A stretch of 64,000 nt of DNA from assembly GCF_020740795.1 (NCBI RefSeq), contig NC_067304.1, positions 3,710,056-3,774,055 on the forward strand, in the 5' to 3' direction. The DNA is from Apus apus (Eukaryota > Chordata > Aves > Apodiformes > Apodidae). Of the stretch, positions 13,425 to 63,111 are shown in pieces; the stretch's first letter is position 1, and each line of letters starts with the position of its first letter. Under the pieces are notes generated by a model, which did not search any database, was not told where the DNA came from, and saw nothing but the letters and a program-made list of their open reading frames with translations. The translations under genes and the position numbers were made by a program.

Positions 13425-13545
13425 ACAGAATCACACAGAATCACAGAGTGGTTTCGGTTGGAAGGGACCTTAAAGATCATCTAGTTCCAACCCCCCTGCA
13501 TGGGCAGGGACACCTCCCATTAGACCAGGTTGTTCAGAGCCCCAG
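13425..13545 (-). mobile_element. CR1 retroposon 3' fragment
   Basis: Two copies of the CACAGAATCA end motif are followed by GGTTGGAAGGGACCTTAAAG, ATCATCTAGTTCCAACCCCC and a 'gcagggacacctcccattagaccaggttg' type stretch. This is the reverse complement of a CR1 3' end, truncated to about 120 bp. Confidence 0.85.
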
Positions 13546-20574: not shown

Positions 20575-23500
20575 ATGGCCGACACAGCGTCCGGTAGCTC
20601 CGGCACGGTAACGGGGGGGGCCTCACCGAGATGCGGGGCTGTTTAAGAGGGGATTCCCCGCGGGGCAGGGCGGGGGGCGGCGGCGGCAGCTCCGGGCGCT
20701 GAGGCGGCCCCGCGCGGCGCCCGGGCCTTTTGAGGCGGAGGCTGAGGGGAGGGCGGCGCTGATTGGCTGCGTGGCCGGAGGGGGGCGGGGCTCGGTTCTG
20801 CCGCGCGGATTGGCCGGTGAGGGAGCGGCGGGGCGGGGCTGCGCGGGGGGGCGGCTTTTTTAAAGGGGCCGCGGGCCAAAGGGCGTCTGCGCTGGGTGGG
20901 TCTGGGTCTGGGTCTGGGTCTGGGTCTGGGTCTGGGTCTGGGTCTGGGTCTGGGTCTGGGTCTGGGTCTGTCGGTATCCGTGTCTGTCGGTATCCGTGTC
21001 TGTCGGTGTGTTGGTGGGGGTGTGTGGGTGTGTGTATACATGGATGTGTGTGTCTACATGTGTGTCTACACGTGTGTCTGTAGCTGTGTAGCTGTGTAGG
21101 TACGGATCATGTGTGTCTACACGTGTGTCTGTAGCTGTGTAGGTACAGATCATGTGTGTCTACACATGTGTATGTAGATGTGTAGGTATGGATCATGTGT
21201 GCCTACATGTGTGTCTGCATGTGTGTCTACATGTGTGTCTACACATGCATATGTAGATGTGTAGGTATGGGTCATGTGTGCCTACATGTGTGTATGTAGA
21301 TGTGTAAGTATGGATCATGTGTGTCTACATGTGTGTATGTAGATGTGTAGGTATGGATCATGTGTGTTTACATGTGTGTCTACACGTGTGTATGTAGATG
21401 TGTAGGTATGGATCATGTGTGTCTACATGTGTGTCTACACGTGTGTATGTAGATGTGTAGGTATGTGTCATGTGTGTCTACATGTGTGTATGTAGATGTG
21501 TAGGTATGGATCATGTGTGTCTACACGTGTGTATGTAGATGTGTAGGTATGGATCATGTGTGTCTACACGTGTGCATGTAGACATGCAGGTACAGATCAG
21601 CGCCGTTGCCCTGCCCGGTCCCTGCTCCCGGGCGAGCAGAGCTCTGGCCTCGCTGCCGGGTGACACGGTTCGGTGACACGCCGCGGGTGGGGGTGACACG
21701 GAGCTGGTGGCCTCGTGTCCCTGAGCCTTGGGGCGGGTCTGTGTCCGCAGCGCTCGGGCGGCAAGCACCCCAGCACGCCTGCCGACAACTACCACCTGGC
21801 GCGGAGGAGGACCCTGCAGGTGGTGGTCAGCTCCTTGCTCACCGAGGCCGGCTTCGAGAGCGCTGAAAAGGCCGCCGTGGAGACGCTGACCGAGATGTTG
21901 CAGAGCTGTGAGTGTCCTGCTCAGCCACACCCGGCCCCTGGCGTTTCTCTCTCTGCCCCCTGGCCTTCCCTCTTTTGTTTTTGTGTTGGTTTTCCCCCAG
22001 TTTCCTTACCTCGTGTCAGTGACGTTAGCGAGAGGGGAAGGCTAGAGCACAGCCCTGGAGCCACAGATTTCTGTGAGGTGTTTGTCCAAACTCAGAAGTA
22101 CTTGTTTACCTTACTCTGTGGTTACTCATTAGATACTCAGTAGGTATCCTAATAAGCTCCATGTATTGAGATGCTGCCAGAATAAATACAGAAGTAACAA
22201 CGTTCCAGACCTGTGGTTAGTTGAGGCTGTGGGAGTCTTTGGCAGCTCTGTTCCTGCTCCTCTGGGTGATGCACCTGGGCTCTCAGGTGACTTCTTATTC
22301 TGAAATCAAGAGGTTTTGTCCTTTTTTCACACCTGTGATGCAGATTTGCCTTTTGCATTCATGGAAAACATCTGACTCTTTGATCTCTGGTGCATTTTTG
22401 CACACGCTTTAATTTTAAATACGTGAACTGTAGGCACTGGATTCCATGAAGTGTTTTTTCATTCCTGGCTAGGTTTGCTAAAAAATTCAGGTCTCTGAAG
22501 TCAGAGTTGGGCTTACATTTGGTCTCTGTCTGAATCAAATATGCAGTGATGTGGTTTGGTTTTTTTTTTTCCCCCACCAGATATTTCTGAAATTGGAAGG
22601 AGTGCAAAGTCCTACTGTGAACATACAGCCAGAACGCAGCCTACACTCTCAGATATAGTGGTTACTCTTGTGGAAATGGGTGAGTGGTTGACTACTGAGT
22701 TGACTAGTAGTGGACTATTAGGTCCCACTAACTCCAGCTGCCTCCTTTTGTAGAAGATTTTGGGTGTACTGCATTGGTAGGAAAATCTGTCCTCCATATT
22801 TCAGATGCCACTGCTGCAGATCCAGTATGAATATATATGAAGACACTTTCTTTCTCATCTAATTTGGAGCCCTTGGCAAAATTCTGGGGAAGTCTTAAGA
22901 GAAGGGATTTTTTGATAGGATAAGCTCTTGGTGTGATTTCTATTTCCTCTTTTGTGTTTCAGGGTTCAATGTTGAAACACTTCCTGCCTATGCTAAGCGC
23001 TCCCAGAGGATGGTCATCACTGCCCGTACGTGGGAAATCCTTTCTCTTCTTATGGAGGCTGGAAATAATTTGGCATTCCCATCCACTGGCATCCAGAGCT
23101 CCTGCTTTTCTGATGGGTGATGCAGCCCAGTGCTCCTGGATGTGCAGTTTGTGTTAAGGATTCCTGTAGTGACTGTGTGGAGGAAGGTATCCTCTGCCAA
23201 ACGAGTTGCCTTTCCTCATTGCACATGAGAATCCTCAAGACGGTTTTATTCTTCCTGTGTGGAAGAGAAGGGGCAAGTAATCCTTGTTCCCTTTTGGGAT
23301 GCCAAACACAACCTGAAAATATTGCTTGTGGGATGTATTTTATCCTTTGTGTAGGCCCTGGAGGCACAGGTTGTGGATTAAACCAACTCTTGGCAGGATG
23401 AAGCTGGCTGATTTGTGTGTGTGTGTTTGTTTTTTAATTGTAGCTCCTGTGACAAACCAGCCCGTGACTCCCAAAGCCCTGACAGCTGGACAGAACAAGC

Positions 23501-28789: not shown

Positions 28790-31734
28790 TCAGCTGTAGT
28801 ATAAACTCAGGTAGGCCAGTCGGTTCCGGTGCTTAATGAAGTCTCTGTCCATGGTCATCTAAAAAACAGCTGCTATCCATTACCTCTTAGCAATGACAAT
28901 TGCTTCAGGAGAGCACAGGAAGGTGTCAGATGGTGTCATGAACATCACCCCATGGGTTCATCCAGAAAGGTTTGCTCTTCAGCCAAGCTACACAGGGAAG
29001 TCTGGGCTCTGGTTCTCTCACTGGGTGGATGGCAAATTTCAGAGCAAATTTCTTAATAGAAATTGTTTTATTTTAGGGACTGTAACCATTTTTGCAAACC
29101 AGCATTTCCTGGTAGGTAATCACTTTGTATCTTGTGCCTCAGGCTGGTACAGCCACATACCCAGAAGGCCATTTAGGAAAAGATGACAAAACATAGTGCA
29201 AATGTGTTGAAGTAATAATCCAATTTCCTTTGTCAGAAGATTTAAGTCAAGAATAACATCCCTTCATCCCTATCCTTACCTTCTGTACCTCCATTTTTAC
29301 CATCCTCTTTGCTGGTGTTGGCACTAAAGACCAGTCTGGAGACCCAAATTTCATTGGCCAAGTGACTTTTTTGGGTAATTTCTTCTCTGCTTTGTAAGTT
29401 CCAGGTCTAAAGAAAACAGGCACAAAATATCTCACTTCTGGAGCTGGTGTATGATGTTTGTAACACAGGAATTTACCAGCCCCAATCCAAGGGAGAAATG
29501 TCTGTTGTGGTATTTTAGGCATCATGCTAAATTAAAGACTAAAGCAGGGGAGCTTTTTGGGGAAAAAAAAGCATTGCTGAGAACTTGGTCATCTGTTTCC
29601 CATTTGCATCTTTGTATTTCTCTCTGCTACTACTACTGCTTATTATTGAAAGTGTAAGAAAATGAGTTACATTACCCAGGGGAAAATTCTTTATCTGAAG
29701 GCTTATCTGGAAATCGTGGTGTCTTACAGGAAAATGGAGCATAAGCAGGCTGGCATTTCCTCTCTTTGGTCCAAAATGATTGATACGTTGCTGGGCCAGG
29801 ACTCCCAGTCTGCAAGAGAGAATATTTTAGTAGGGAAGAATTTGCTGTGCAAATCATTCCTACATGCTCTGATCAGTAGCCAGCTGGGCAGTATGGACCT
29901 GCTGTTCATGTTTTGGGTACTCTGGGAACATAAAAAAATGAGAACAAGAGAGCCATGAGTGTGGTGAAGGGTGTGGATGGGATGACTTAGGAGGAGCAGC
30001 TGAGGTCGCTTGGATGGTTCAGCTTGGAGAAGAGGAGGCTGAGGGGTCACCTCATTGCAGTCTGTGGCTTCCTCAGGAGGGGAAGAGATGGGGCAGGTCC
30101 TGATCTCTTCACTCCTGTGACCAGTAACAGGACTGGGGGAAATGGCAGGAAGCTGAGTCAGGGGAGGTTTAGGCTGGGTATCAGGAAAAGGTTTTTTCAC
30201 CCAGAGGGTGGTGGAGCACTGGAACAAGCTCCCCAGGGAAGTGGTAAAAGCATCAAGCCTGCCTGAGATCAAGAAGTGTTTTGATGATGCTCTCAGGCAC
30301 ATGGTGTGATTCTAGGGGTGCCCTACTCGGGGACAGGAGTTGGACTTGGTGATCCTGATGGGTCCCTTCCACTCAGCATATTCTACGATTCTAAATCAAT
30401 TATGCACCCCCTACTCCTTATCCAGTGTGTCTTGTGTTGTTACTCCTGATAATACTGTTATGTTAGAGAAGATGGACCAGAAAACAGTGTGTTTGCTCAG
30501 TTGGTACAGCTGAGCTCTCTGATTTTGCCTCAGTCTGTTCATTAATGTGTGTGTGACACAAAGGAATGTGTATATACAAATGCACGTGTCAGTGTTACCA
30601 GAGCTCATAGTTCCCACTAGACTGTGTAAGGAGATTTGTAGCTACTCTATATATAAAGTTGGGGGCAGCCCCCAGCAAATGTAATCAAAATTGGTAGCCT
30701 GTGGTGGGAACAGCCTGCAGATCCTTGCAAAGCTGCAGCTCTGCTGCTCTAAAGGTGCTTTTCTTACCTGTGGCTGTAGCGTGGAACGCTGGGCTGTTCT
30801 TGCTCCTATGACATAGCCCTTCTTGCTCAGTGGTTTGCTTTCCAAAGAGTATTTGAGGCTGCCTCTCTGTAATTCAAAAGCAGAAGTGTCATTACTGACA
30901 TTTTTAATACACCATTTGCATCGGGGGAAGGGCAGAAGTACATCAACAGCAGACACTGTTCCTATTGATTCCACTAATTTCTCAGTAACTTAGAGCTCTA
31001 GGGCAGCTGGAGCTTTAGCAGGTACATTTGGAAAGGGAATTTATTTTTCTAGGAATACATGGAGACATTGTAGAATGGGTTTGCAGGGCAGGTGGGGGGG
31101 GGGGGGCGGGGGGCTCTGTGTCTGGCTGGCCATGGTCCTGTTGCTCCTGTGTCTCCTGTGAAGGAAAAGCTCTGAGCAAGGAAACTGAACAACTTACCTT
31201 TTCACTCAGGTAACAGCCTGGTCCAAGCAAAGGGTTACCCCTGATGGCTACCAGCTGGATTCCCAGCCTGTCTGAGGGGTGGTGGAAAGGGAATATTTTC
31301 CGCTCTTGACATGACCCAAATGAGATCTTCTTCTGCACATCTGTGAGACCAGGAGAGAGAAATGCCACCAGAGTGATAAACCCACGTGGAGATGACCACT
31401 TGCTGCTTTTTACCCTCCTTAGGTGTCTGCTGCTCTCTGCCTGTGGCTAACAGTCCCATTATCTTCCAGGTGGGAATTTCCCCTGACTCTGGATACTGGG
31501 GGGAGGGGGGGGCAGGTAGGGAGGGTCAGCCCTTAGGATGCCTGTTCCCTACTTCCACAAAGGCTTCTTTGTCCCCAGCCTGAGTAAGGAGCAGCTCAGC
31601 AGCCCAGGGTGGGGAAGGTTTCTGGGGAAGCCCCATGTTTCAGGGGAGCTGTGCAAGAAGGGAAGCCCAGTATCCACAACCCTGGTGGGTGCAGGAACCT
31701 CGTGTGGCTCACCTCTCAGCTGCCCTGTTGCCAT
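28790..31734 (-). CDS. PIFO: PIFO/pitchfork (CIMAP3), ciliary microtubule-associated protein
   Basis: Homologue of pitchfork, a cilium-associated protein linked to basal bodies and cilium disassembly. Minus-strand coding exons: 31713-31734, 31198-31340, 30768-30866, 29676-29809, 29280-29406, 28790-28858. All are GT-AG with matching phases, total 594 nt (197 aa; human about 191). Recognised segments: FGSCQERKIFPFHHPSDRLG and GPGCY (exon 2), KGYVIGARTAQR (exon 3), APFSCKTPRF (exon 4), TWPMKFGSPDWSLVP (exon 5), and the ending DFIKHRNRLAYLSLYYS (exon 6). Repeated PGxY-type motifs (GPGCY, GPATY, GPGTY) mark the family. Exon 1 (MATGQLR) is the least certain; it was chosen because its GT donor leaves one base that completes the exon 2 codon, it has A at -3 and G at +4, and an X-box-like site lies just upstream. 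PIFO also neighbours CHIA in human. Confidence 0.93.
29960..30393 (+). mobile_element. CR1 retroposon fragment in PIFO intron 3
   Basis: Plus-strand CR1 3' portion of about 430 bp, antisense to PIFO. Hallmarks are GGCTGAGGGGTCACCTCATTG, the segment ending CCAGAGGGTGGTGGAGCACT, GGAACAAGCTCCCCAGGGAA, and the terminal GGGTCCCTTCCACTCAGCAT followed by ATTCTACGATTCT. It lies within PIFO intron 3 (29810-30767) and produces a spurious 192-codon minus-strand frame. It is non-coding. Confidence 0.9.
31094..31113 (+). repeat. Poly-G run in PIFO intron 2
   Basis: A nearly pure G tract interrupted by one C, in intron 2 on the strand opposite to PIFO. It is a likely hotspot for length variation and sequencing error. 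Confidence 0.8.
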
Positions 31735-31785
31735 GCTGCCCTGCCAGACCTCAGGATGTGTGTGTACTCCAGTTGCTATGGACAC
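31727..31785. promoter_or_regulatory. RFX X-box-like motifs at the PIFO start
   Basis: GTTGCTATGGACAC (31772-31785) matches 11 of 14 positions of the RFX palindrome GTTGCCATGGCAAC. It lies 38-51 bp upstream of the proposed PIFO ATG. A second half-match, GTTGCCATG (31727-31735), overlaps the ATG itself. X-boxes bound by RFX factors are typical of motile-cilium genes, as expected for PIFO. Confidence 0.6.
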
Positions 31786-32216
31786 AGAGCAGAGGCTGCT
31801 GGAGGGAAAGCTGGCAACGGCAGTGCCTCAAGGGTGCAGGGAAAACAAGGGGGTTAGTAATGTCCCTGTGGAATGTGATGTGCTGGCTCTGACTCAAAAA
31901 AGCTGTTTTTTTCACACTCTGAAGTCAGCAGAGGAGATGCTGGGGATGCAGACTATAGTTTGTGCTGTCACAACCCTTCTCTGTGATCCCTCTTCTGACA
32001 CAGCCTGATCTACCCCATTGTCTGCTCTCTGGCTTTTCTCTGAGCCTGACTGCCAAGGTAAAATGAAAAATGCCATCCTGAAATTAAGTCCACCTTGTGG
32101 ATTCAGGCCCTTCCTTGAGCACAAGAGTGAGTATCATGAGAGAATCAGGGAGCACCAAAATATTAAAAGCAGGAGGAGTTGAAACAACAAGGGTTGTTGC
32201 GTTTCCATCTCATACA
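31786..32216. other. Spacer between chitin-binding gene and PIFO
   Basis: No exon seen. The part from about 31965 to 32216 aligns by eye with 36290-36545 in the other duplicated copy (shared pieces include GAGAATC, GGAGCA, AAAATATTAA and GAGTTGAAAC), so it belongs to the duplicated block downstream of the chitinase terminal exon. Confidence 0.6.
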
Positions 32217-32222
32217 TTTATT
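32217..32222 (-). terminator. Poly(A) signal of the chitin-binding gene
   Basis: TTTATT on the plus strand (AATAAA on the minus strand) lies 64 bases past the stop codon. The equivalent hexamer is kept at 36555-36560 in the duplicate, so the signal predates the duplication. Confidence 0.75.
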
Positions 32223-32285
32223 TAATAATTCATTTTTCAAGCAATTAGATCAGAAGGTCTCTTTGCTGGTATAGCATTGGTAGCT

Positions 32286-33335
32286 TCATGGTGATTTGCA
32301 GCAGGAGCAGCTGGTATCAAAGACCTGGCCCTCCTTGCAGCTCTGCAGGTGGCTTTCACCATCACTGCACTTGTAGAAGTTCCTCTTGTTGCTTGGATCT
32401 GCGTAGACACCATTGGCCTTCCCAGCACAGAAGTCAGCAAGATGAGTCACTGTTGTAGTCAACAATGTAGTGACCTCTGTTGTAGGCCCATGTGTGTCAC
32501 AGAGAGGAAAAGTGCTAGAAATGGTTGTGGTTGGAGGAGCAGTTGTGGTTGGAGGTCTGGTTGTAGAAGTAAGCTTCCCTGAAAGCCGTCTGGAAGGTGC
32601 ACAATCTGGAAAAAAAAGCAGGAAGGGGTTTATTTTTTGTGTTGGCAGCTTCAGCCCTCCCCTCCCTCCCTGAGAAGGGTTTGGTGGAGTTGTTTGAGAG
32701 GGAGAAAGCACCTACCTATCTGGGCGTTCAGCAGCAGGAGCAGACCTTTCAGGGAAGAAGTGTGGGATTAGTCTTGGAGTTGAGCAATACAAAGCTCCCA
32801 TGCATGACTGGACTCAACTCAATATAACCTGTACCCTAGGTCAGAGTCTCTGAGGGGGGTGCAGACTGAGACAAAGAAGTTATGTTTCATCTAAAGCCTG
32901 ATCTGAATTTTCTTGAGCTTGTTCTTGCCTCTATACAAACACTTGACTATCCAATGCTCAAGAAAGCAGACTATTGTGTGTTATTTCAAGAAAATAAAAC
33001 AGTACATGGCAGGATTTGATACAGAAACAGGAAAAAAAGTAAGTTCACATTGCAGTATTTTGATTTTAGGGGTTTTGCAATCAAAAAGACCTTTTCAATT
33101 TCAACTAGCAAAGCATAAAGCATCAACAGGAGTCATACTGAACAGTGTATCTGTACCTCCTGCAAGTAATTGCTGTGTCTGTTTGTTTCCCAGGAGTGGG
33201 AAACATCTGGACCTCCAAGAGAGCTCTGTGTCACCACCCATGATGATACAGCAAAACTTCCCCAGATCTCATCAGAAAGGCAGAGAATGAAGTTCTGAAG
33301 CAAGACTTACCAGTAAGCAAAATGAGCTTGGCCAT
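32286..33335 (-). CDS. Secreted CBM14 chitin-binding protein derived from a chitinase (no catalytic domain)
   Basis: Three minus-strand exons: 33311-33335, 32716-32745, 32286-32605; 375 nt, 124 aa plus stop. Exons 1 and 2 encode a chitinase signal peptide (MAKLILLTG, then LLLLLNAQI), matching the acidic chitinase start MTKLILLTGLVLILN. Exon 3 joins in phase and encodes a Thr/Pro-rich linker (about 30-75, likely O-glycosylated) and a CBM14 (peritrophin-A) domain at 78-121 with six cysteines (C78, C98, C108, C118, C120, C121). Two extra cysteines (C20, C54) flank the linker. GH18 exons 3-10 are absent; the intervening intron is only 110 bp. Expected role: secreted chitin or glycan binding without hydrolysis. 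A single chitin-binding-domain protein, CBD1, has been reported from chicken egg; orthology is possible but untested here. The family's terminal Trp after the last Cys pair is replaced by KSP. A TATA box lies at 33373-33379. Confidence 0.85.
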
Positions 33336-33372
33336 CTTTGCTTTGGAGGAGCCCCAGGCAGCCTGGTTATGC

Positions 33373-33379
33373 TTATATA
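33373..33379 (-). promoter_or_regulatory. TATA box of the chitin-binding gene
   Basis: TATATAA on the minus strand, 38 bases upstream of the ATG (33335). The homologous position in the duplicate has TATAAAA (40263-40269). The short distance implies a leader of only about 10-15 nt. Confidence 0.7.
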
Positions 33380-33509
33380 CACTTGCCTTGTTTCCTGCCA
33401 GTCTTGTGTCAACAGAAGTGGACAAACATTGCAAAACCCGGTAAAGATCAGTATCAGAAATTGATACCGTTACAATGGGCCTTGGGGTGGCCCTTACAAA
33501 GGGTGAATT

Positions 33510-33704
33510 GTTCCCCTTGTGCTGTCGTGTGTGTGCCCAGAGGTGGCAGGCACTGCCAACCCAGGGTGCTTGACGAGGGGTTTGTCCCCTTGGCTGGGGC
33601 AGCCAGCGAGGCAGGGCTGGGCAGGGCTCAGGTCACAGCAAGGGCCTTTGGGGGACACAAGGACTGGGCTCACTGCTCTGGGCAGCACAGGGTCCTGGGG
33701 GCTT
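33510..33704. repeat. 195-bp duplicated segment, copy 1
   Basis: Matches 40555-40749 over 195 bases with three substitutions and no gap (about 98.5%). It lies about 175 bp upstream of the chitin-binding gene's ATG. It is GC-rich and carries no gene; the open frames it gives are identical in both copies simply because the DNA is. Confidence 0.95.
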
Positions 33705-35659
33705 TGTGAGACCAGCTGTCTCTCCACTTGCCAAGCTGCTTTTCTTCAGAGACAAGCGTTGTTTAGAGGAGGCCAAGCTGTGTGAGGGAGCCCAGGGACA
33801 GGGCATGGTGCAGGCTGCATTTCCTCCCACACTTCTTCCCTGCTCTTCTTTGTCAGCTGTTTGTCTCTTGAACTGAGAGACGTTTGTGATGCCAAGGGTT
33901 CATGTCTTGCTGTGGCTTTCTCTTAAACTCCACAGGGACAAATTACCTGCATCTTCTTTGTTCTATGTGGGCTTGTCAGGCTGTTCTTAAAAAGAAGCAA
34001 CTTATCTGTTTCAGCTCATGTGTCTTGTTTTGTTACTTATAGGATGTATGTTTTCCTTATCTGGATGAGAATTTCTAAAAAGCAGTTGCAGGCACTGAAA
34101 ATGACATTTATAACCCACAAAAGCCTGGCTTCACACTCAGATCTACTGCAAATGCTGCAGTGAGACACAGTGGGCCCATGGCCAGTTGCTCTGCCCTGAG
34201 ATGTTGATTAATTCCTGTTAAGACGTTGTGAAGTGAATTTCCAGGAAGTTACTGAGACTTTGTTGAATGGGAGCCTGGAAAACACCCTCAGAGTTGCCCG
34301 TATCAGCTGCTGGCACTGAAGCCACTGACCTTCCTTTAAAGTTTATTAGACTTCTAGATTTCCTGTATGAAGTGGAGAAACAGAGTCAGTGATGAAGGAG
34401 GTTTGTCAGAGTCAGGCATGGAGCTTGCACAGCTTTGCACCCCTCTCCTGTGAGATGTGTCTGACAACTGAGTCCCATCAAACTCTCTACAAACTGCTCT
34501 TTTCCCCAAAGCCCTTCAGCATCCAGCCTTGCTAACCTGGGTGGGCAGGAGCCACTGCTGAGGGACATGGATTTGTCCTCTGTGCCCTTGCTCTGCAGGT
34601 GGGGCAGGTGACTGTGGAAGGCTGAGCTGGGAAGAAGTGGGAAGGTCAGTGCAATGGCCCCGTGTGTTTGGAGAGCCCTGTCCTGACCCTTGTGTGGAAG
34701 CAGAGGTCTGGGCAGGGGCCTCCTGGTACAGGGAGACTGGAGCTGAGAGCAGAGACAGGGACTTGTGCCAATGGCAGCACGAGGACAGCCCAGGGGCAGG
34801 TTGGCAGCCAGAGAGGTGGATGGGGTGGACGTGCCCTTTGCCTGCTCTGTGTATGGGCAAGATCCAGCTTTGGATTTGCACGTGGAGCGAGGCTGCAGAG
34901 ATGCTGTTGAGCTGCTGTAAATGCAGTTTGGATTTGTTTTGTGGAGCTGAGCAGCTCTGTGACTGTGCCAGTGAAATCCTGGGAGAGCTGTGCCTGCTTT
35001 GGGCTGCTGATGGGATGTTCCTCCCTGCAGGCAGACAGCTACTGCCATGGAGACAATCTGTTGCCAGTTTGGTTGTAGTTAGTGTGTGGGGGTGTTCCTG
35101 GGAATTTCTTGGGAATTTTCCAATGGGAATGTCCCCCAGGTATGTCTGTGTCCACATGTACATGAACAGCCTGTGTTGCCAGAGCTCGTATGATCAGTCC
35201 TGCAGGCCTGGGCTTTGCCCTGGGATTTCCCTGCTGGGATGGGATGTTTGTGGAGATCCAGGACTAGCCCACAATTGGGACTGGTCCGTGTTTGCCTGTG
35301 TATGACAGTGACAAGCACCTAAAGCCCTGCTGCTTTTCCATCTCTCTCTGCTCCTCAAACAGAGTCTGTTTCTGAAAACATGGTTCAGGACCAATAAAGG
35401 GTGAGGAGAAAAAACTGGAGTAGCTGGTGTGTGCAGGTGATGAAAGACTCTTGAGTGACTTCACTGCAGTGTGCATGTTTGCAGGAGCTGTACAGAGGCT
35501 GAGCATGCCGAGGTGCACTGGAGGCTGATGCTCACCCTTCAGCAGGTGCCCCCAGGGCTGCTGTGTCATTTCACTTCTGCTTCTCAGTGGGGTCTGAAGT
35601 GATCTGTGGGGCAGGAGTGCTGTGCATGAATGAACTGCAGCCCCAGCACGTGTGATTGA
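33705..35659. other. Intergenic within the duplicated region, no gene seen
   Basis: No gene recognised. Around 34386-35305 long frames of 215-222 codons are open on both strands simultaneously, one Trp/Cys-rich and the others Ser/Pro-rich, with no family match. Overlap on both strands argues against coding. PIFO exons 4-6 would be expected here if the duplication had been complete; none was found by eye. Confidence 0.45.
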
Positions 35660-35935
35660 AACTGAGAGTCTATGGTGAGAACGGCCTTAGAAACCTGTGC
35701 AGAGCCGGAGCTCTGCTGCTTTGACGTGTGCTTTTCTTGTCTAGTAAAAAACACTGGGCTGCTCTTGCTCCTTCCACAAAGCCTTTATTGCTCCATGGTT
35801 TCTTTCCCAGGGAGTATCTGAGGCATTTTCCCTCTCGTTTAAAAGCAGAATACTCCTCCTGACATTTTTGAGTCACCACTTGCATGAGTGGAAGGGCAGA
35901 AGTGCCTGAGCAGCAGGAGAGATCACTCCAACTCG
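35660..35935 (-). pseudogene. Broken duplicate of PIFO exon 3
   Basis: Aligns with PIFO exon 3 and its flanks (30690-30960). The exon equivalent is about 35742-35833 and still reads RYSLGKKPW, SNKGF and EGARAAQ, against KYSLESKPL, SKKGY and IGARTAQ in PIFO. Relative to the retained AG acceptor it carries a 4-base insertion that shifts the frame, and the GT donor has been lost. No neighbouring PIFO exon was found nearby. It is a relic of the PIFO copy that accompanied the right-hand chitinase. Confidence 0.8.
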
Positions 35936-36554
35936 TTTCTCTCTCTGGGCAGTTGCTTTTTAAGTGACCTTTTGTTGGGAGAGGGGGGAAAATAGTTTTG
36001 TGATTCTGCCTTTAGGCTGCTGCCATGGGGCTTGAGGGACCCTTGTTGCTCAGGCCAGGGAGAGAACTCTTGGGGCTCTAGGACACACCAGGAGTCTCCA
36101 AGTGAATTGGTATGTGCCCAGGGAGACCAGTCCTGCAGGTGGGAGTAACTGATGCTTCATGGCCAGAGCAGCAGGGCTGTGGGACCTTTGAAGACTGTTT
36201 CCTTTGGAAGGTATATTTTCTGGGAGGAGACTGTTTTTTCTGGGTAAATGGACAGGCTTTGCTCAGTGGGGAACCTGTGTCCTGGTTGTGCCACTGTGCC
36301 CCTTCTCTGTGTGCTCTTTCATGGCACAGCCTGGTCTGACCTGACTCATCTGCTGTTTTTTCCTCCTCTCACTGCTGCCCCCCTGGCACAGCCAGAAAGC
36401 CCTGGAAAAGGCCCATTTATAGCTGTTTAAAATACAGCTTATGGATTCAGGCTATTCCCTGAACAAAAGCTGAAGTATCACAAGAGAATCTCGGAGCATG
36501 AAAATATTAAGAACAAAATGAGTTGAAACGAGGCTTGTTGCTTTTGTGGAACAC

Positions 36555-36560
36555 TTTATT
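36555..36560 (-). terminator. Poly(A) signal of the GH18 chitinase gene
   Basis: AATAAA on the minus strand, aligned with the signal at 32217-32222 in the other copy. It lies about 310 bases past the present stop codon in exon 10, past the remnant of exon 11. Confidence 0.7.
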
Positions 36561-36599
36561 TAATCATTATTATTCCAGGCAAGAGGATCAGAGTAATGT

Positions 36600-36702
36600 G
36601 TTTGCTGAACTAGGATTGGTGTCTTCTTGGCAAGTTGTATCAGGAGCAGCTGGTATTGTGAACAAGACTGTCATGGCCTGGACTGTTAATAGATCTTTCA
36701 GC
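36600..36702 (-). pseudogene. Degenerate chitin-binding exon (exon 11 remnant)
   Basis: The minus strand keeps the acceptor (a tract ending TTTCATTTCAG) and the last part of a CBM14 exon: AATACCAGCTGCTCC aligns with GATACCAGCTGCTCC in the intact exon at 32286-32605, but the next codon is TGA where the intact copy has TGC. About 230 bp of linker and chitin-binding sequence between the acceptor and this motif is missing. If spliced, it would be 3' UTR, because exon 10 already stops. Confidence 0.8.
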
Positions 36703-36868
36703 CTGAAATGAAAGCAGGAAATAGTTTTCCTTTGGGAGGGGTTTATGTTTATAATGGATGCCCCTCTCTCCATCCTTCCATGGCCCCATGGCATTAGGAG
36801 CACACCAGCTTTGTACAGCTTATGTCCAAAGAACAAAGCCCATATTGTTCAAATTACTCACCCCTGCT

Positions 36869-39800
36869 TCACTGGCCAAGACCCTTCTTCAGGGTGCTGA
36901 TCAGGGGATATTTGCCCTGATTGCAGAAAGTGCCAGTGAAGTCATCCAAATCAAGGGTCCAAACCATGGCACCTCCAAAGTTGTTCTTCTTCAGCCAGTC
37001 AACCTGTTCAGTGCCAGGGGAGAAATCCCAATTAGTCCCAGGTCCTGCCACTGCAGAAGGCTCCTGCCTCACTGTTGGCACAGCCACACATCCCATCATA
37101 CCTTGAGGTTGAAGCTCTTGACGTTGTCATAGCCAACCCATTCGCTGCCCTTGTAGGCATAGGGGACATCCTCGGGGGCATCCCAAGCCTGGGTGGCTCC
37201 AGAGTTCAGGAATGAGCAGATCTAGGAGAAAAGGGCAGAGAGGGAGAAGTCAGCAATTATCCTACAAAAAATAAAAAAGGCAGCTGGAAGATTCCACAGC
37301 TGAAAAATTCCTTGCTAGGAGGTTTGAGGAACATTTGTGCTGTTCTTGCTGTCTCAGGTGAGAGGGAACACACACCTCATAGTAAGCCAACAATCCAGCC
37401 TCCTGTGTGTAAGTTCCAGCTGGCCCAGGTCCTGTTGCTGGTGCCCCCACAGCAGTGTTGGATGGATTTTGGAGGTTGAAGGTACGTCCATAGGTTGGGA
37501 ATCCAACAAGGAGCTTCTTAGCTGGAGCACCATTGTCCCTCCAATATTTCATAGCATATTCCTATTAAAAAACCCCCCACGATAGTTAAACTCTGTGCTA
37601 GGATCTGTAGACAGGAAGGTGACTTGTGTGGCAGAGGCTCCCAAAATGTACTTACAACACTGAGTTGGGGGTTAGCAGCACTGTGCAGAGGGCTGTTCTC
37701 CCCAGTGCGTCCTTCCCCGGCGCTATGGAAGTCGTAAGTCATCACATGGATGTAGTCCAAGTACCTGTGGAGAACATTGCACACATCTACCTTCTGGCCT
37801 TCTCAGTCACCCAGACCTGCTTGTCCCTCTAGTGCGGGCTGTTTACCCCACCACATCCCTGGCCACGTCCCCACTTTCAGCAAATCTGGGCTCTTCAAGA
37901 CCTTTTTTTAACCTGGCCTTGTAAGTGCTGGAGCCATTTGTCTCCTCCGGAGGAGGGAGGCAGAGGTGAAGGCAGAGTAGGAATTGAGCTGCTGCTCTGG
38001 GAACCCAGAGATGATCTCCAGTAGCCTGGAGTGGCTGGAGCCAGCCTGTCCTTACACTTCCCTTCCCATTGTGTCCCCTTCCCCACCACACAAGCACAAC
38101 ACTCATAGTGTTCTTGCCTTACACAAAGGACTAGGGACCCCACATGGAGAGAGGCTGGTCTGTGCCAGGGAGTGGCAGAGTTTTCTTTACCCATAGGAAG
38201 GAAGAGCTCCTGAGTCACAGAAATGACACCCGAGAGTTGGCTACTCACTTTCCAAGCTCAGCAATCTCGTAGCCAGCCTGAATGGTGGAAAGTCCTGCAG
38301 CAACAGCAGCGGTGACCATGAGCCGGGGCCTGTTGGACTGTCTGGCTTCCTGCTCAAAGGCTGCCACCATTTCCTGCGGGATGCCAAGAAGCAGGTCTCA
38401 GTGTGGATTCTCTGGGTTGAGGCTTTGCAGCCAGAGCTGTGCCGAGCAGAGAGCTTGACCAAACCCTTTTGTTTCAACCCACCTTAACCAGGACAGTGAA
38501 GAGTGTCTTGTCCTGGGCTGGGCTGCCCCTGGACCCAGGGTATTCCCAGTCAAGGTCCAGACCATCAAAGTTATGCTTGCGCAGGAATCTGATAACAGAA
38601 TTGATGAAGGTCTGGCGGTTCTGAGGAGTGGAAACCATTGTGGAGAACCTATGGAAGAAGAGCAGGACAGAGTTGGGGTTTGGTTGGTGGCTTTCTCCTC
38701 TTCTTCCTCCCTTTCCATAGTGCAGTTATGGGAAGGAGATGGTTTGAACTTACTTGGCTGTCCCAAAATTCCATCCTCCAATTGCCAGAAGGGTCTTCAG
38801 ATTTCTGTTCCTGCAAAGGAAGGGACAGGAGCATGTTTCAGGCAACATCTGTTAGTGTGAAACCCAAAGAGCAACTTCACAGCACATTGAGTCACTGTCA
38901 CCATCATCAAAGGACCAGTGCTGGCAGCCTGCCCTGCTCTCCCCAGCCCTCCCCATCACTATCAGCTTCTCCTCCCTGGCATCCCTCAACCTTGGCTTGG
39001 GCTTCCATCGTGCAGAGAACAGCTGCTGAGTAACAGGAAGGAACCCAAGGGGGAGACCAGGGGCTGCCCTTTGCTCCCGGTACCTACTGGTTCTTCAGGC
39101 CATTGAAGGATTTGTAGAGGGTCTCGTCGTTCCATTCGTAAGTTGTGATCTCGTTGTTGTTCATGTTAGCAAAGGCGTAGATCAGGTGGTTGCACAGGAA
39201 GGGGTCGATGTTTTCAGGCATGTACTTTCCCAGGCCAGGCCTGTACTGGGCCCAGTTGGTGAAGTAACATGTCAGCACGTAGGCAGTGCCTGCAGGGAAA
39301 CGGGAGGTGGGGTAGGTTTGAACTGCATTGGAGAGATACTAGTAAATTCAGGCAGAGTGTCATAACTTGCTCTGATGAGAAATGACTGGGCAGTGCTTTC
39401 CTGCAGGGAAAGGATCTCAGAGAAAGTGAAGGAGGGTTGGTTGTCCCCCAGGGAACTGGCTCGCCAAGGAAAAGAAAGGATTTCTTTCTTTCCTACTTTG
39501 TTTCAGGAGATGAGTCAGTCTGGGAGCCTCTTGCACCCTTCAGCTCATGGGTGTGGGTGGTTCTGAGTGCTGGGTCTCTTCCCCAACCTCAGCCTTTCTG
39601 CTTTGCTTTTGCGTAAGGAGGAGCAGAGGCAGGAGGGATCTCTGCTGAAGTGCCTGGGAGGTGGGAGGCTCTTGGTGTGTTGGCTGTGCTGCCTGTTTGA
39701 CCTGCCTGTATGAGCTGATGCTGAAAGGGTTTGGTGGAGTTGTTGCTTGAAGCAGGTACATACCTATCTGGGCGTTCAGCAGGAGGACCAGACCTTTAGA

Positions 39801-40224
39801 GAAAAAAGTTAACGAACAAAAGTTTTAGTGTTTGTACTTAGAAACACAAAGGTCTTGTGCAGGACTGCACTGAACCCAAGATAACCTTATCTCAGGATCA
39901 CTGCTTTTTATTAAAACCATTCAAGAATTTGTGTATTCTCAAGTGTGAGAATACACACTCAACAGCTGAGTGTTTATCTGGAAGTGGGCAGCATTCGTCA
40001 TATTATTGCAGGATAAAATATAGCAACACTGAACAACTGTTCCTTCTGAATGTAACTGCTCTATCTTTCCCTTTAGGAGAAAAGACAGTGCAAGATATCT
40101 AATCCCCAGGAACCCCCCTGCATAAGCACCCAGTATAACAGTGAAAGAGCCACAAACACTCTGTGAAGGCAGAGAACTAAGTTTCAAAGCAGGACTTACC
40201 GGTCAGCAAAGTGAGCTGGGCCAT
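36869..40224 (-). CDS. CHIA: Acidic-chitinase-like GH18 chitinase, catalytic domain only
   Basis: Secreted endochitinase of glycoside hydrolase family 18. Minus-strand exons: 40200-40224, 39764-39793, 39088-39289, 38754-38810, 38483-38648, 38249-38373, 37656-37764, 37376-37561, 37102-37221, 36869-37003; 1155 nt, 384 aa. Signal peptide 1-21, mature start [13 protein letters not shown]. The GH18 motif DGLDLDWE is at 133-140 with Glu140 as acid catalyst, numbering as in human AMCase; MTYD is at 210-213, and the late Trp in [11 protein letters not shown] is kept. Oddities: HGSWEG is HSAGEG (Trp218 lost), the next loop is five residues shorter, and exon 10 stops after KKGLGQ, eight bases before a good GTGAGT donor, so no chitin-binding domain is made (AMCase is about 476 aa). 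The GH18 scaffold and PIFO linkage favour CHIA over CHIT1, but this is a lineage duplicate and the symbol marks the family. Activity is likely but subsite binding may be altered. Confidence 0.92.
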
Positions 40225-40262
40225 CTTTGTCCAGGACTGGTCTGGTGCAGCCCATCTCCCAT

Positions 40263-40269
40263 TTTTATA
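40263..40269 (-). promoter_or_regulatory. TATA box of the GH18 chitinase gene
   Basis: TATAAAA on the minus strand, 39 bases upstream of the ATG at 40224, homologous to the TATA box of the left copy. Further upstream, GATAAAGATCAGTATCA-type sequence is shared with the left copy (40331-40350 versus 33442-33460), so a promoter of about 180 bp was duplicated with each gene. Confidence 0.7.
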
Positions 40270-40554
40270 TGCTCCTCTTGTTCCATGCCAGTCTTGGATC
40301 AACAAAGATGGATAAACATTACGAAATCTGATAAAGATCAGTATCACAAAGCCGTGATACCAGTACAATGGGTCTTAACACTCTTAAACCTCCATCTGGA
40401 GACACCACTATTATCAGGCTGTGCCACGTTGTGGGGCTGCAAGAATAGGGACAAAAAAGGGAAAAGATTAGATGGCTTTACTGTTAGCAGTTGTGTTGAC
40501 AGTGACAGGCTGTGGGTCAACACCAACGATTACACAGTCATGGGTGGCTGAAGG

Positions 40555-40749
40555 GTTCCCCTTGTGCTGTCGTGTGTGTGCCCAGAGGTGGCAGGCACTG
40601 CCAACCCAGGGTGCTTGACAAGGGGTTTGTCCCCTTGGCTGGGGCAGCCAGCGAGGCAGGGCTGGGCAGGGCTCAGGTCACAGCAAGGGCCTTTGGGGGA
40701 CACAAGGACTGGGCTCACTGCTCTGGGCAGCACGGGGTCCAGGGGGCTT
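40555..40749. repeat. 195-bp duplicated segment, copy 2
   Basis: Near-perfect copy of 33510-33704 (three substitutions). Here it is about 330 bp upstream of the chitinase ATG, because roughly 170 extra bases (about 40381-40550) separate it from the shared promoter block. Confidence 0.95.
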
Positions 40750-41825: not shown

Positions 41826-42150
41826 ATCATAGAATCATAGAATGGTTAAGATTGGAAGGGACCTTAAAAATCATCAGGTTCCAACCTCCCTGCTCTAAGC
41901 AGGGACACCTCTCACCAGACCAGGCTGCACAAGCCTCATCCAACCTGACACCTCCAGGGAGGAGGCAGCCACAATCTCCCTGGGAAACCTATTCCAGTGC
42001 CTTACTGCCCTCATGGTCAATAATTTCTTCCTGATGTCTAGCCTAAATTTCCCCTCTTTCAGTTTAAAACCATTACTCCTTGTGCAATCACTGCCCTCTC
42101 TGGTGAAAAGCTCCTCCCCAGCTTTCCTGTAGGCCTCCTTGCAGGCCACA
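41826..42150 (-). mobile_element. CR1 retroposon 3' fragment
   Basis: Starts with the classic ATCATAGAATCATAGAATGG tail in reverse complement, then GATTGGAAGGGACCTTAAAA. The internal segments about 'ctattccagtgccttactgccctcatggt' and 'cctaaatttcccctctttcagtttaaa' follow. About 325 bp, minus strand, 5'-truncated, no coding capacity. Confidence 0.92.
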
Positions 42151-46369: not shown

Positions 46370-46860
46370 AGGAACTTCTCGGGGCTCGGGAGCTCAGAGG
46401 GGTCTCGGTGGCACCGGCAGCGCGGGTCCCTTCCCGGTAACTCCCGCGCGCAGCCACAGGGGGGCGCCACCAGCCCCGGCCCCGCGGGCGGAGCCTGGAG
46501 ACCCCTGCCCGGGGCGGGCACGGGGGGCTGCACATCGGGTCCCAATGGCCTGCACGGGGGGCTGCACATCGCGTCCCAGCCGGCAGCACGGGGGGCTGCA
46601 CATCGGGTCCCAATGGCCTGCACGGGGGGCTGCACATCGGGTCCCAGCCGGCAGCAAGGGGGGGCTGCACATCGCGTCCCAGCCGGCAGCAGGGGGGGCT
46701 GCACATCAGGTCCCCACTGCCTGCACGGGTCCCGGTGGTGGGAGATGATGGGATGACGGGCTCTCCACCTTCCAAGGCGCTGGTGTACTCAACACACAAG
46801 CCTGCTCCCGTCCCCCGTGCAGACCTGTCCCAATCTCTCCGATCAAACATTTGCATTAGT
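46370..46860. promoter_or_regulatory. Orphan CpG-rich island
   Basis: G+C and CpG rise abruptly (GGGCGCCACCAGCCCCGGCC, CCGCGGGCGGAGCCTGG) far from any recognised gene start: about 6 kb upstream of the chitinase and 15 kb upstream of BTG2. It could be a promoter of an unrecognised transcript or a distal element. Minus-strand open frames of 92-173 codons through it derive mostly from the tandem repeat and are not supported as genes. Confidence 0.5.
46518..46722 (+). repeat. 34-bp minisatellite inside the orphan CpG island
   Basis: Six units start at 46518, 46552, 46586, 46620, 46654 and 46689 (34 bases each, the fifth 35). All carry the core GGGGGGCTGCACATC. Two alternating unit types differ in the second half: CCCAATGGCCT versus CCCAGCCGGCA. 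The last unit is more diverged. Confidence 0.92.
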
Positions 46861-61601: not shown

Positions 61602-63111
61602 ATGAGCCAGCGACAGAGCTCTCGCCGCGGCGGCTCCCGGCCCGACATGGTGCCCGAGATCGCCGCCGCCGTCGGCTTCGTCTCCAGCCTGTTGCGGACG
61701 CGGGGCTGTGTCAGCGAGCAGCAGCTGCAGGTTTTCAGCGGGGCGCTGCGGGAGGCGCTGGCAGGTGAGGCGAGGGGCTGGGGGAGAGGTTGGCTTTGTA
61801 GGGAGGATGGTCCGAGGTGAGAAAAGTCTCCGCCTGTCCTTCTGCTCCCCATCGGGACTAGGTGTGCACTGGTGTGCTTCCCTGTGTTAACTCCCAGGAC
61901 CTGGTGTCCTTCTGTGGGTGCCCAGCGGTGTCCTCTTGGCTTGGGCACCTATCTGTGTCCTTTCCTGGTGCCCAGCTGTGTCATCCTTGGTGCTGGATAC
62001 CCGTTTCTGCCTTTGGGTGCCCGCTAGGGACTGGCAGACCCCTGTGTGCCTCCCTGGACACTTGCTTGTGTCCCTGTGGGGTCCTGGGCAAACTGTTGTC
62101 TCAGCTCAGACAGGGAGCAGATCCCCTGCCTGGTCTCTGAGGGCTTTGTGCAGCCCATCTGCTTGAAGCCCTTCTTCCTGGGGCTTGATACGAACCATCT
62201 AAAGCTTCTCTGTGTGCCCTGTCCCCTGGCAAGAAGTGCTCAGCCCCTGTGTCAGTGGAGCTTGGTGCCCCCCTCCCTTTGTCTGGGGCTCAGCCCTAAC
62301 TGGGTGGTTCAAGGGTGTCCTCCCAGCCTTGTTATCAGCGCTCAGAAGGGATAGTTTGTTTCTCTCTGCTGAGATAAGGGGTAATGAAGTGCCTCTGAAC
62401 TTAGAGAATGACTTGGATGTTACTCCCTGACCGCTGCTTTGTCGGTGGTGATACGGTATCTTCCCCGGCCACCCCAGTGGTCAGGGCAAGAAGGTGTTTG
62501 GGTCCCAGCACTGCAGCCCCCGTGGCACCATCCTGGCTGAGGTTTCTAGGACCTGAAGAGCTGTGCTTCTCCTCCCTGGAGCAAGCAGCAGCTGGATAGT
62601 TGAGCACTGGGCTCCGGAGCCTCCGTCTGGTGGAGGCAGCCAAAGGAGGGCTCTGTTCCCCCGCCTACAGCGAGGTGTGGGACCCCCTCGGGACTGCAGC
62701 AGGACACAGACCTCCACAGCTGCCGCACGCCTGCTCACCCACCACTCTTCCCTTCTCGCTTCCCTTGCAGAGCACTACAAGCACCACTGGTTTCCTGAGA
62801 AGCCGTTCAAAGGCTCCGGGTACCGCTGCATCCGGATCAATCACAAAATGGACCCCATTATCTGCAAGGCAGCGAGCCAGATCGGACTCAGCCTCCCACA
62901 GCTCTACCAGCTCCTGCCCAGTGAGCTCACCCTCTGGGTGGATCCCTACGAGGTCTCCTACCGCATCGGGGAGGACGGCTCCATCTGTGTCTTGTACGAA
63001 GCAACTGCCACAAAACCTGTGAGCTCCTATGGGATGCTTACCTGTAAGAACCAGATGATGTTAGGTCGCACCAGTCCTTCCAAAAACTACATCATGACTG
63101 TCTCCAGCTAA
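61602..63111 (+). CDS. BTG2: BTG2, antiproliferative BTG/TOB-family protein
   Basis: Adaptor that recruits the CCR4-NOT deadenylase (through CNOT7/CNOT8) and restrains proliferation; in mammals it is a p53-induced immediate-early gene. Exons 61602-61764 and 62771-63111, one GT-AG intron in phase 1; 504 nt, 167 aa plus stop (human 158). BTG box A is around 57-85 ([20 protein letters not shown]), box B around 103-123 ([20 protein letters not shown]), and the C-terminal [12 protein letters not shown] keeps the Ser-Pro site. The CNOT7-contact residues known in human as Y65, W103 and D105 correspond to Y72, W110 and D112. The N terminus [20 protein letters not shown] is seven residues longer than MSHGKGTDMLPEI. 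Start choice: the only in-frame ATG ahead of the conserved domain with promoter spacing; a second ATG at codon 16 would give a protein starting at [10 protein letters not shown]. Two-exon structure matches the family. Confidence 0.97.

Follow-up and report, generated by a model that had tools for sequence, protein, structure and literature searches.

In a 64,000-nucleotide stretch of the Apus apus genome (contig NC_067304.1, positions 3,710,056 to 3,774,055; hereafter the window), the two domains of a duplicated, stomach-type secreted chitinase are found in two separate, neighbouring genes. The upstream gene, RIGHT (40.2-36.6 kb), encodes a GH18 domain without a CBM14 chitin-binding module, and the downstream gene, LEFT (33.3-32.2 kb), encodes a CBM14 module without GH18, a complementary loss that a first-pass annotation of this DNA had already described. 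LEFT is followed by PIFO (31.7-28.8 kb), and all of these genes, like the two paralogous blocks in which they lie, are on the minus strand. We consider it somewhat better than an even bet that the pair arose by gene fission, that is by duplication and successive losses in the labile avian BTG2-Chia-PIFO cluster under birth-and-death evolution.

The self-comparison that the first-pass annotation had suggested was run on the whole window with BLAST and confirmed the homology of the blocks. Five collinear same-strand pairs join them (E 5e-17 to 4e-94), as expected of a tandem block duplication: 30665-30952 with 35637-35916 (72%, E 9e-33), 32091-32317 with 36435-36656 (72%, E 3e-26), 32670-32830 with 39721-39887 (71%, E 5e-17), 33277-33483 with 40166-40376 (73%, E 7e-28) and 33501-33704 with 40546-40749 (97%, E 4e-94). 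The region so delimited runs from the PIFO stop at 28790 to the edge of the last matching block at 40749. The matches at 71-73% cover the promoter, exon 2, the 3' end and exon 3 of PIFO, and a looser run extends two of the block pairs at 67%. A forced global alignment of six pieces, mostly non-coding and one of them containing PIFO exon 3, gave 76% identity and a Kimura two-parameter distance of 0.29 over 1006 aligned sites. The fifth pair is a 204-bp block on the minus strand upstream of each promoter (40546..40749 for RIGHT, 33501..33704 for LEFT), with six mismatches and no gap between the copies in surroundings that are just 71-76% identical. No third copy was matched elsewhere in the genome, and by its sequence the block would represent a recent gene conversion or a recent duplicative insertion.

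RIGHT comprises ten exons with AG acceptors and GT donors, encoding a protein of 384 residues that ends in GLGQ-stop. Behind a TATA-like box (40263-40269), exon 1 (40200..40224) supplies the start codon and signal peptide, exon 2 (39764..39793) completes the signal peptide and ends in phase 1, and exons 3-10 (36862..39289) carry the whole GH18 domain as a 1107-nt cassette that is in phase 1 at both ends (exons 3-6 at 39289-39088, 38810-38754, 38648-38483 and 38373-38249; exons 7-10 at 37764-37656, 37561-37376, 37221-37102 and 37003-36862). In Pfam the protein has a single GH18 domain (PF00704, E 2e-104, profile positions 2-317 of 317), and it is about 73% identical to mouse and human AMCase. 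It retains D136, D138 and E140 of the DxxDxDxE motif as well as D213, and relative to AMCase it carries Gly for Trp218 and Arg for His269. The loss of the catalytic Glu that distinguishes chitolectins of the CHI3L kind is not seen, E140 being present. What has gone is the C-terminal CBM14: an in-frame TGA (36869..36871) precedes the former donor of exon 10 by seven bases, and the chitin-binding exon is reduced to a decayed remnant (36625..36702), beyond which stands the poly(A) signal AATAAA (36555..36560). Read past the TGA, the frame of RIGHT runs in register into the terminal exon of LEFT, as expected of parts of one ancestral gene. A hybrid transcript, spliced from exon 10 of RIGHT to the terminal exon of LEFT, would restore both domains in a continuous frame, but it is excluded by the position of the TGA ahead of the donor. 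In all likelihood RIGHT is still translated into a secreted GH18 protein, whose cleft residues are altered and which may be an active enzyme.

LEFT is built from exon 1 (33311..33335), exon 2 (32716..32745) and a terminal exon (32286..32605) that encodes a Ser/Thr/Pro-rich linker and the CBM14 module up to a stop TGA; a TATA-like box lies at 33373-33379 and an AATAAA at 32217..32222. The separate promoters and poly(A) signals attributed to the two genes are therefore present in sequence, with one TATA-like box and one AATAAA for each. Spliced together, the three exons give 124 residues: a signal peptide, a linker of 57 residues (31/57 being Ser, Thr or Pro) and one CBM14 module, which scores 38.8 bits against a cut-off of 22.1 for CBM_14 (40.5 bits in the genome search). 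We found no stop, frameshift or splice lesion in LEFT, whose 124 codons are open up to the stop and whose introns are GT-AG. No GH18 match was found at 28-36 kb of the window.

The missing exons have left a scar in the 110-nt intron 2 of LEFT (32606..32715), which consists of old intron 2 at its 5' end and the old last intron at its 3' end. Its first 78 nt align with intron 2 of RIGHT, and when the first 70 nt were tested by shuffling, 0/2000 shuffles reached the observed score. Its 3' end scores 14.1 against the last intron of RIGHT (0/2000 shuffles) and 13.8 against that of a third GH18 copy, C3, introduced below (2/2000 shuffles), compared with 5.5-12.6 against the nine other acceptors of RIGHT. 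Since the scar aligns with two separate introns, the sequence indicates that the GH18 exons of LEFT were most likely removed between intron 2 and the last intron. With the cassette in phase 1 at both ends, excision of exons 3-10 leaves the frame readable.

Evidence on the order of the losses comes from the C3 copy. We searched a genome of 1.1 Gb in 110 contigs, in which the window lies on contig C24 (6.88 Mb), and the dispersed third GH18 copy, of eight exons, lies on the 157-Mb contig C3 (L010 4283-6731; C3 144.433-144.436 Mb). Its exons 3-10 have canonical splice sites and show no indel relative to RIGHT, with one in-frame TAG ahead of a TGA in common with RIGHT; exons 1-2 of this copy were not found by the same search that recovered those of LEFT at 71-73%. 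A genome profile search with PF00704 gave seven exon matches, four from RIGHT and three from C3 (11/11 candidates scored), and with PF01607 the LEFT exon was the sole match (34/34 candidates scored), so that these searches found no two-domain chitinase in the genome. DNA-level searches, whose queries were 3 kb from RIGHT and 1.5 kb from LEFT, likewise returned nothing beyond the RIGHT, C3 and LEFT loci. Searching exon by exon is not exhaustive, which makes these statements of copy number strong and not absolute.

Three features are common to RIGHT and C3: the TGA codon ahead of the last donor, the remnant of the CBM exon and a Phe at position 49. Because these losses are common to both, the catalytic-only state of RIGHT predates its split from C3. 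Across exons 3-10 (365 codons, no indel) the two differ with dS 0.201 and dN 0.065, a dN/dS of 0.32, and their introns with K 0.205. The 49 residue differences comprise 15 placed on RIGHT, 16 on C3, 5 that fit both, 12 unpolarised and 1 stop, to be set against a neutral expectation of ~85 non-synonymous changes on the C3 branch if half of the divergence lies there. The low dN relative to this expectation implies constraint on both RIGHT and C3 over the greater part of this period, which followed the loss of the CBM. Purifying selection is thus seen for the RIGHT/C3 lineage, and for LEFT there are weak hints at most.

AMCase and Chil3 have Cys at position 49, where CHI3L1 and CHI3L2 have Phe and CHIT1 has Ser. 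We take the disulphide partner of AMCase Cys49 to be Cys394, in the SASC stretch, a bond that our literature search did not confirm; Cys394 aligns to Cys20 of LEFT, which is encoded by the terminal exon. Phe49 would then fit a long adaptation of RIGHT to life without the lost exon.

Several further observations concern the C3 copy itself. It retains Trp218 and His269, both of which RIGHT has lost, and it was constrained until recently despite its TAG. Upstream of its exons, L010 2959-3597 matches window positions 35721-34896, and downstream, L010 7558-7718 matches 34985-34823, as if the transposed piece derived from the inside of the tandem array. In intron 2, the point at which homology to C3 begins (L010 ~3885) and the start of the LEFT deletion are some 20 bp apart (RIGHT coordinates 39698 and 39676), a closeness that may be coincidence or may mark a fragile spot. 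We also considered whether C3 could be the excised GH18 exons of LEFT. This is excluded, as C3 is 83% identical to RIGHT over 3.7 kb and 73% identical to the 3' end of LEFT, and also because it has the TGA and CBM remnant of RIGHT.

The history that best accommodates these results would begin with an ancestral two-domain chitinase that was duplicated in tandem, together with the part of PIFO behind it up to approximately intron 3. The upstream lineage, leading to RIGHT and C3, would have lost its chitin-binding exon through a stop before the last donor and the removal of most of the exon, and would have continued, under purifying selection, to encode a GH18 protein with the catalytic domain alone. 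The loss of exons 3-10 from the downstream copy, LEFT, would have been a later or an independent event, most simply one deletion, after which the gene could still be read as signal peptide, mucin-like linker and CBM14 module. The two losses were thus probably successive, on the evidence of the shared lesions; the place of the LEFT deletion in this order we infer, as we do the activities and expression of the two genes.

Whether LEFT is still a chitin-binding protein is doubtful. It retains all six of the conserved cysteines of the chitinase-type CBM14 module and none of three binding-face residues defined in CHIT1, with Pro451 replaced by Lys, Leu454 by Gln and Trp465 by Ser. An alanine scan of the CHIT1 module found these three to have a high impact on chitin binding (PMC5459812), and a construct without Trp465 and Asn466 was reported to be unable to bind chitin (PMC4844120). 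With 3/3 high-impact residues replaced, retained chitin binding cannot be assumed for LEFT. Most likely its classical chitin binding is slight or absent, and its present function, judged from these replacements, is doubtful or altered: it may be drifting towards loss or may have taken on another role.

These alternatives are two forms of the fission reading. The first, to which we give a substantial chance though short of even, sees in LEFT a pseudogene in decay, its frame still open for no other reason than that the deletion is recent. We simulated neutral evolution of LEFT with 1000 runs per level, taking the indel rate from the RIGHT/C3 introns, and the frame and splice sites stayed whole in 53%, 17%, 4% and 1.4% of runs at 0.02, 0.06, 0.10 and 0.15 substitutions/site. 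An open frame could therefore survive neutrally for a time, and the loss of the binding residues and the pseudogenisation of CHIA reported in birds (PMC9296559) point in the same direction. The absence of any lesion, the six retained cysteines and an exon 1-2 divergence below that of the flanks speak against it, and because the deletion is undated the simulation does not settle the choice between neutral and selected. The second form, which we regard as improbable, is that LEFT has been neofunctionalised as a secreted protein with the CBM14 fold, serving a new ligand or an antimicrobial or mucus role. Retention of the fold cysteines while the binding face changed would suit this, as would an extra linker cysteine, Cys54, beside the orphan Cys20 in a linker so rich in Ser, Thr and Pro, but the same pattern may be early decay.

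True subfunctionalisation, in which RIGHT catalyses, LEFT is a separate secreted chitin binder and both are jointly needed, is one of the less likely explanations, less likely than all the others except an assembly fault. The complementary anatomy, the TATA-like boxes in homologous promoters, the lack of a two-domain chitinase in the genome searches and the cysteines of the CBM all agree with it. However, all three CHIT1 high-impact positions are replaced in LEFT and the losses appear successive. CHIT1 without its binding module is active, with a similar Vmax and a roughly twofold higher Km, and since the effect is ascribed to the two domains working in concert (PMC5271402), it is hard to see how a module on a separate protein would assist. 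A Chia paralogue without the chitin-binding domain is moreover already present in chicken (PMC13029220), which makes the state of RIGHT nothing special to this pair. The first-pass annotation had called the locus a clear case of subfunctionalisation by domain partition, and that label goes beyond the evidence given the replaced binding residues of LEFT and two losses that are not shown to be linked. A little more likely, though still doubtful, is that LEFT is a hybrid from unequal exchange between two tandem two-domain genes, with exons 1-2 of one and the terminal exon of the next. Such an exchange would leave an identical scar, and at least three copies exist or existed, but the 5' and 3' parts of LEFT are about equally far from RIGHT (71-73%) and do not demand two sources. 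That the assembly collapsed or dropped the GH18 exons of LEFT is scarcely credible: the window is free of N, no GH18 exons assignable to LEFT were found, genome searches return pieces of RIGHT, C3 and LEFT alone, and the scar aligns to two separate introns. The gap or collapse that the annotation had named as a way for its claim to fail was accordingly not found.

Some results sit less easily with fission by duplication and successive loss as we have described it. If the 24 changed of 46 sites were random, the retention of the LEFT cysteines would have P 0.008; exons 1-2 of LEFT are changed at 6/55 sites against 24% (P 0.013), a divergence that spans both branches and includes the time before the deletion. 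Together with the open frame and intact splice sites, the cysteines and exons 1-2 give weak hints of constraint on LEFT. The RIGHT and C3 remnants, judged by eye, read Leu at the Trp465 site, and that residue may therefore have been lost before the duplication. RIGHT, for its part, may be inactive as an enzyme, given Gly218, Arg269 and the virtual inactivity of a chicken Chia1 that also lacks the chitin-binding domain. Finally, the polarity of changes rests on paralogues and on the mouse and human proteins.

At the downstream end of the locus, an intact six-exon gene (28790..31734, minus strand; exons 31734-31713, 31340-31198, 30866-30768, 29809-29676, 29406-29280 and 28858-28790) has an open frame of 197 residues with its stop at 28790. 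We take this gene to be PIFO (CIMAP3), a name based on its sequence and in agreement with its position in the avian cluster (PMC13029220). The right block holds recognisable PIFO in exon 3 alone (35754..35822, minus strand; tblastn E 5e-4), with homology that stops in intron 3, and no trace of a whole second PIFO was seen there beyond exon 3. An intact PIFO on the left and a remnant on the right thus stand as first annotated; the decay invoked for the latter may instead be a truncated duplication, as one that ended inside PIFO would perhaps account for the remnant without a lost second gene. At the other end of the cluster a BTG-domain exon (62725..62997, plus strand) is taken as BTG2 by position. 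A hidden Chia copy between BTG2 and RIGHT is excluded, as tblastn of the window with the LEFT and PIFO proteins and the mature part of RIGHT gave nothing at E <0.1 outside the known exons and the PIFO remnant. Elsewhere in the window there are minisatellite-like direct repeats at 21028-21599 and 46518-46729, and three short stretches that are alike at 79-82% (2197-2345, 13434-13542 and 41828-41974), probably an interspersed repeat.

The significance of the locus depends on the fate of LEFT. A completed vertebrate chitinase fission through excision of a symmetric-phase exon cassette, with a selected gene for a secreted CBM14-only protein of new ligand or role beside a selected catalytic-only gene and no two-domain chitinase left, is to our minds possible and rather unlikely. 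If LEFT is expressed and conserved, the locus would represent vertebrate gene fission by duplication and degeneration with a readable scar, a natural test of a binding module without its enzyme, and a bird that digests chitin, if at all, with no acidic chitinase of the two-domain kind. Should LEFT instead be in decay, it would be another instance of CHIA turnover in birds, with steps that can be read directly.

Avian Chia genes sit between BTG2 and CIMAP3 (PIFO) and show copy-number turnover (PMC13029220). The order BTG2-Chia-PIFO in the window fits that cluster, and the likeness extends to the tandem Chia copies and the paralogue without a chitin-binding domain, which in chicken is Chia1, virtually inactive in assay. 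RIGHT also carries A104/R269, a residue pair described in ruff Chia1. In other respects the locus differs from the published one: chicken Chia2 and Chia3 retain both domains, unlike RIGHT and LEFT; a gene with the chitin-binding domain only, as LEFT is, is not mentioned for the avian cluster in the portions of PMC13029220 used here; and the chicken Chia1 antibody peptide GQQSSSCLTN, taken as C-terminal from its likeness to AMCase SASC, differs from the GLGQ-stop of RIGHT. Two chia copies were inferred in the ancestor of 48 bird species (PMC6487185), penguins have a single, pseudogenised CHIA (PMC9296559), and the chicken cluster holds a partial GH18 frame (PMC1945033). Among the titles listed from a limited open-access literature, neither a CBM14-only vertebrate gene nor a split bird chitinase was evident.

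CHI3L1, CHI3L2 and Chil3/Ym1 lack a CBM, and RIGHT resembles them as a GH18 barrel without CBM14, sharing Phe49 with CHI3L1 and CHI3L2. Chitolectins, by a general statement, lack the catalytic Glu (PMC1945033), which RIGHT retains. A vole CHIA copy is without the chitin-binding domain (PMC13391239) and is in this like RIGHT, a GH18 barrel with no CBM14. For LEFT, the nearest parallels are tachycitin, Blo t 12 and Der p 23, single-module CBM14 proteins (PMC4844120) that are likewise unlinked to a chitinase, but these are invertebrate proteins. Tachycitin retains the conserved Trp (Trp55) where LEFT has Ser, and LEFT retains Cys460 and Cys462, which all three are without.

The monkey king (mkg) family of Drosophila, described by Wang, Yu and Long in 2004, reportedly underwent gene fission by duplication and degeneration. 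Fission of mkg is also cited in PMC4249797. As in mkg, partial losses would here have followed a duplication, so that what was a single ancestral gene is now shared out between two. The resemblance shown here is one of structure. We conclude that the pair is best regarded as a gene fission within a known avian cluster, in which a Chia without the chitin-binding domain is a state already reported from chicken.

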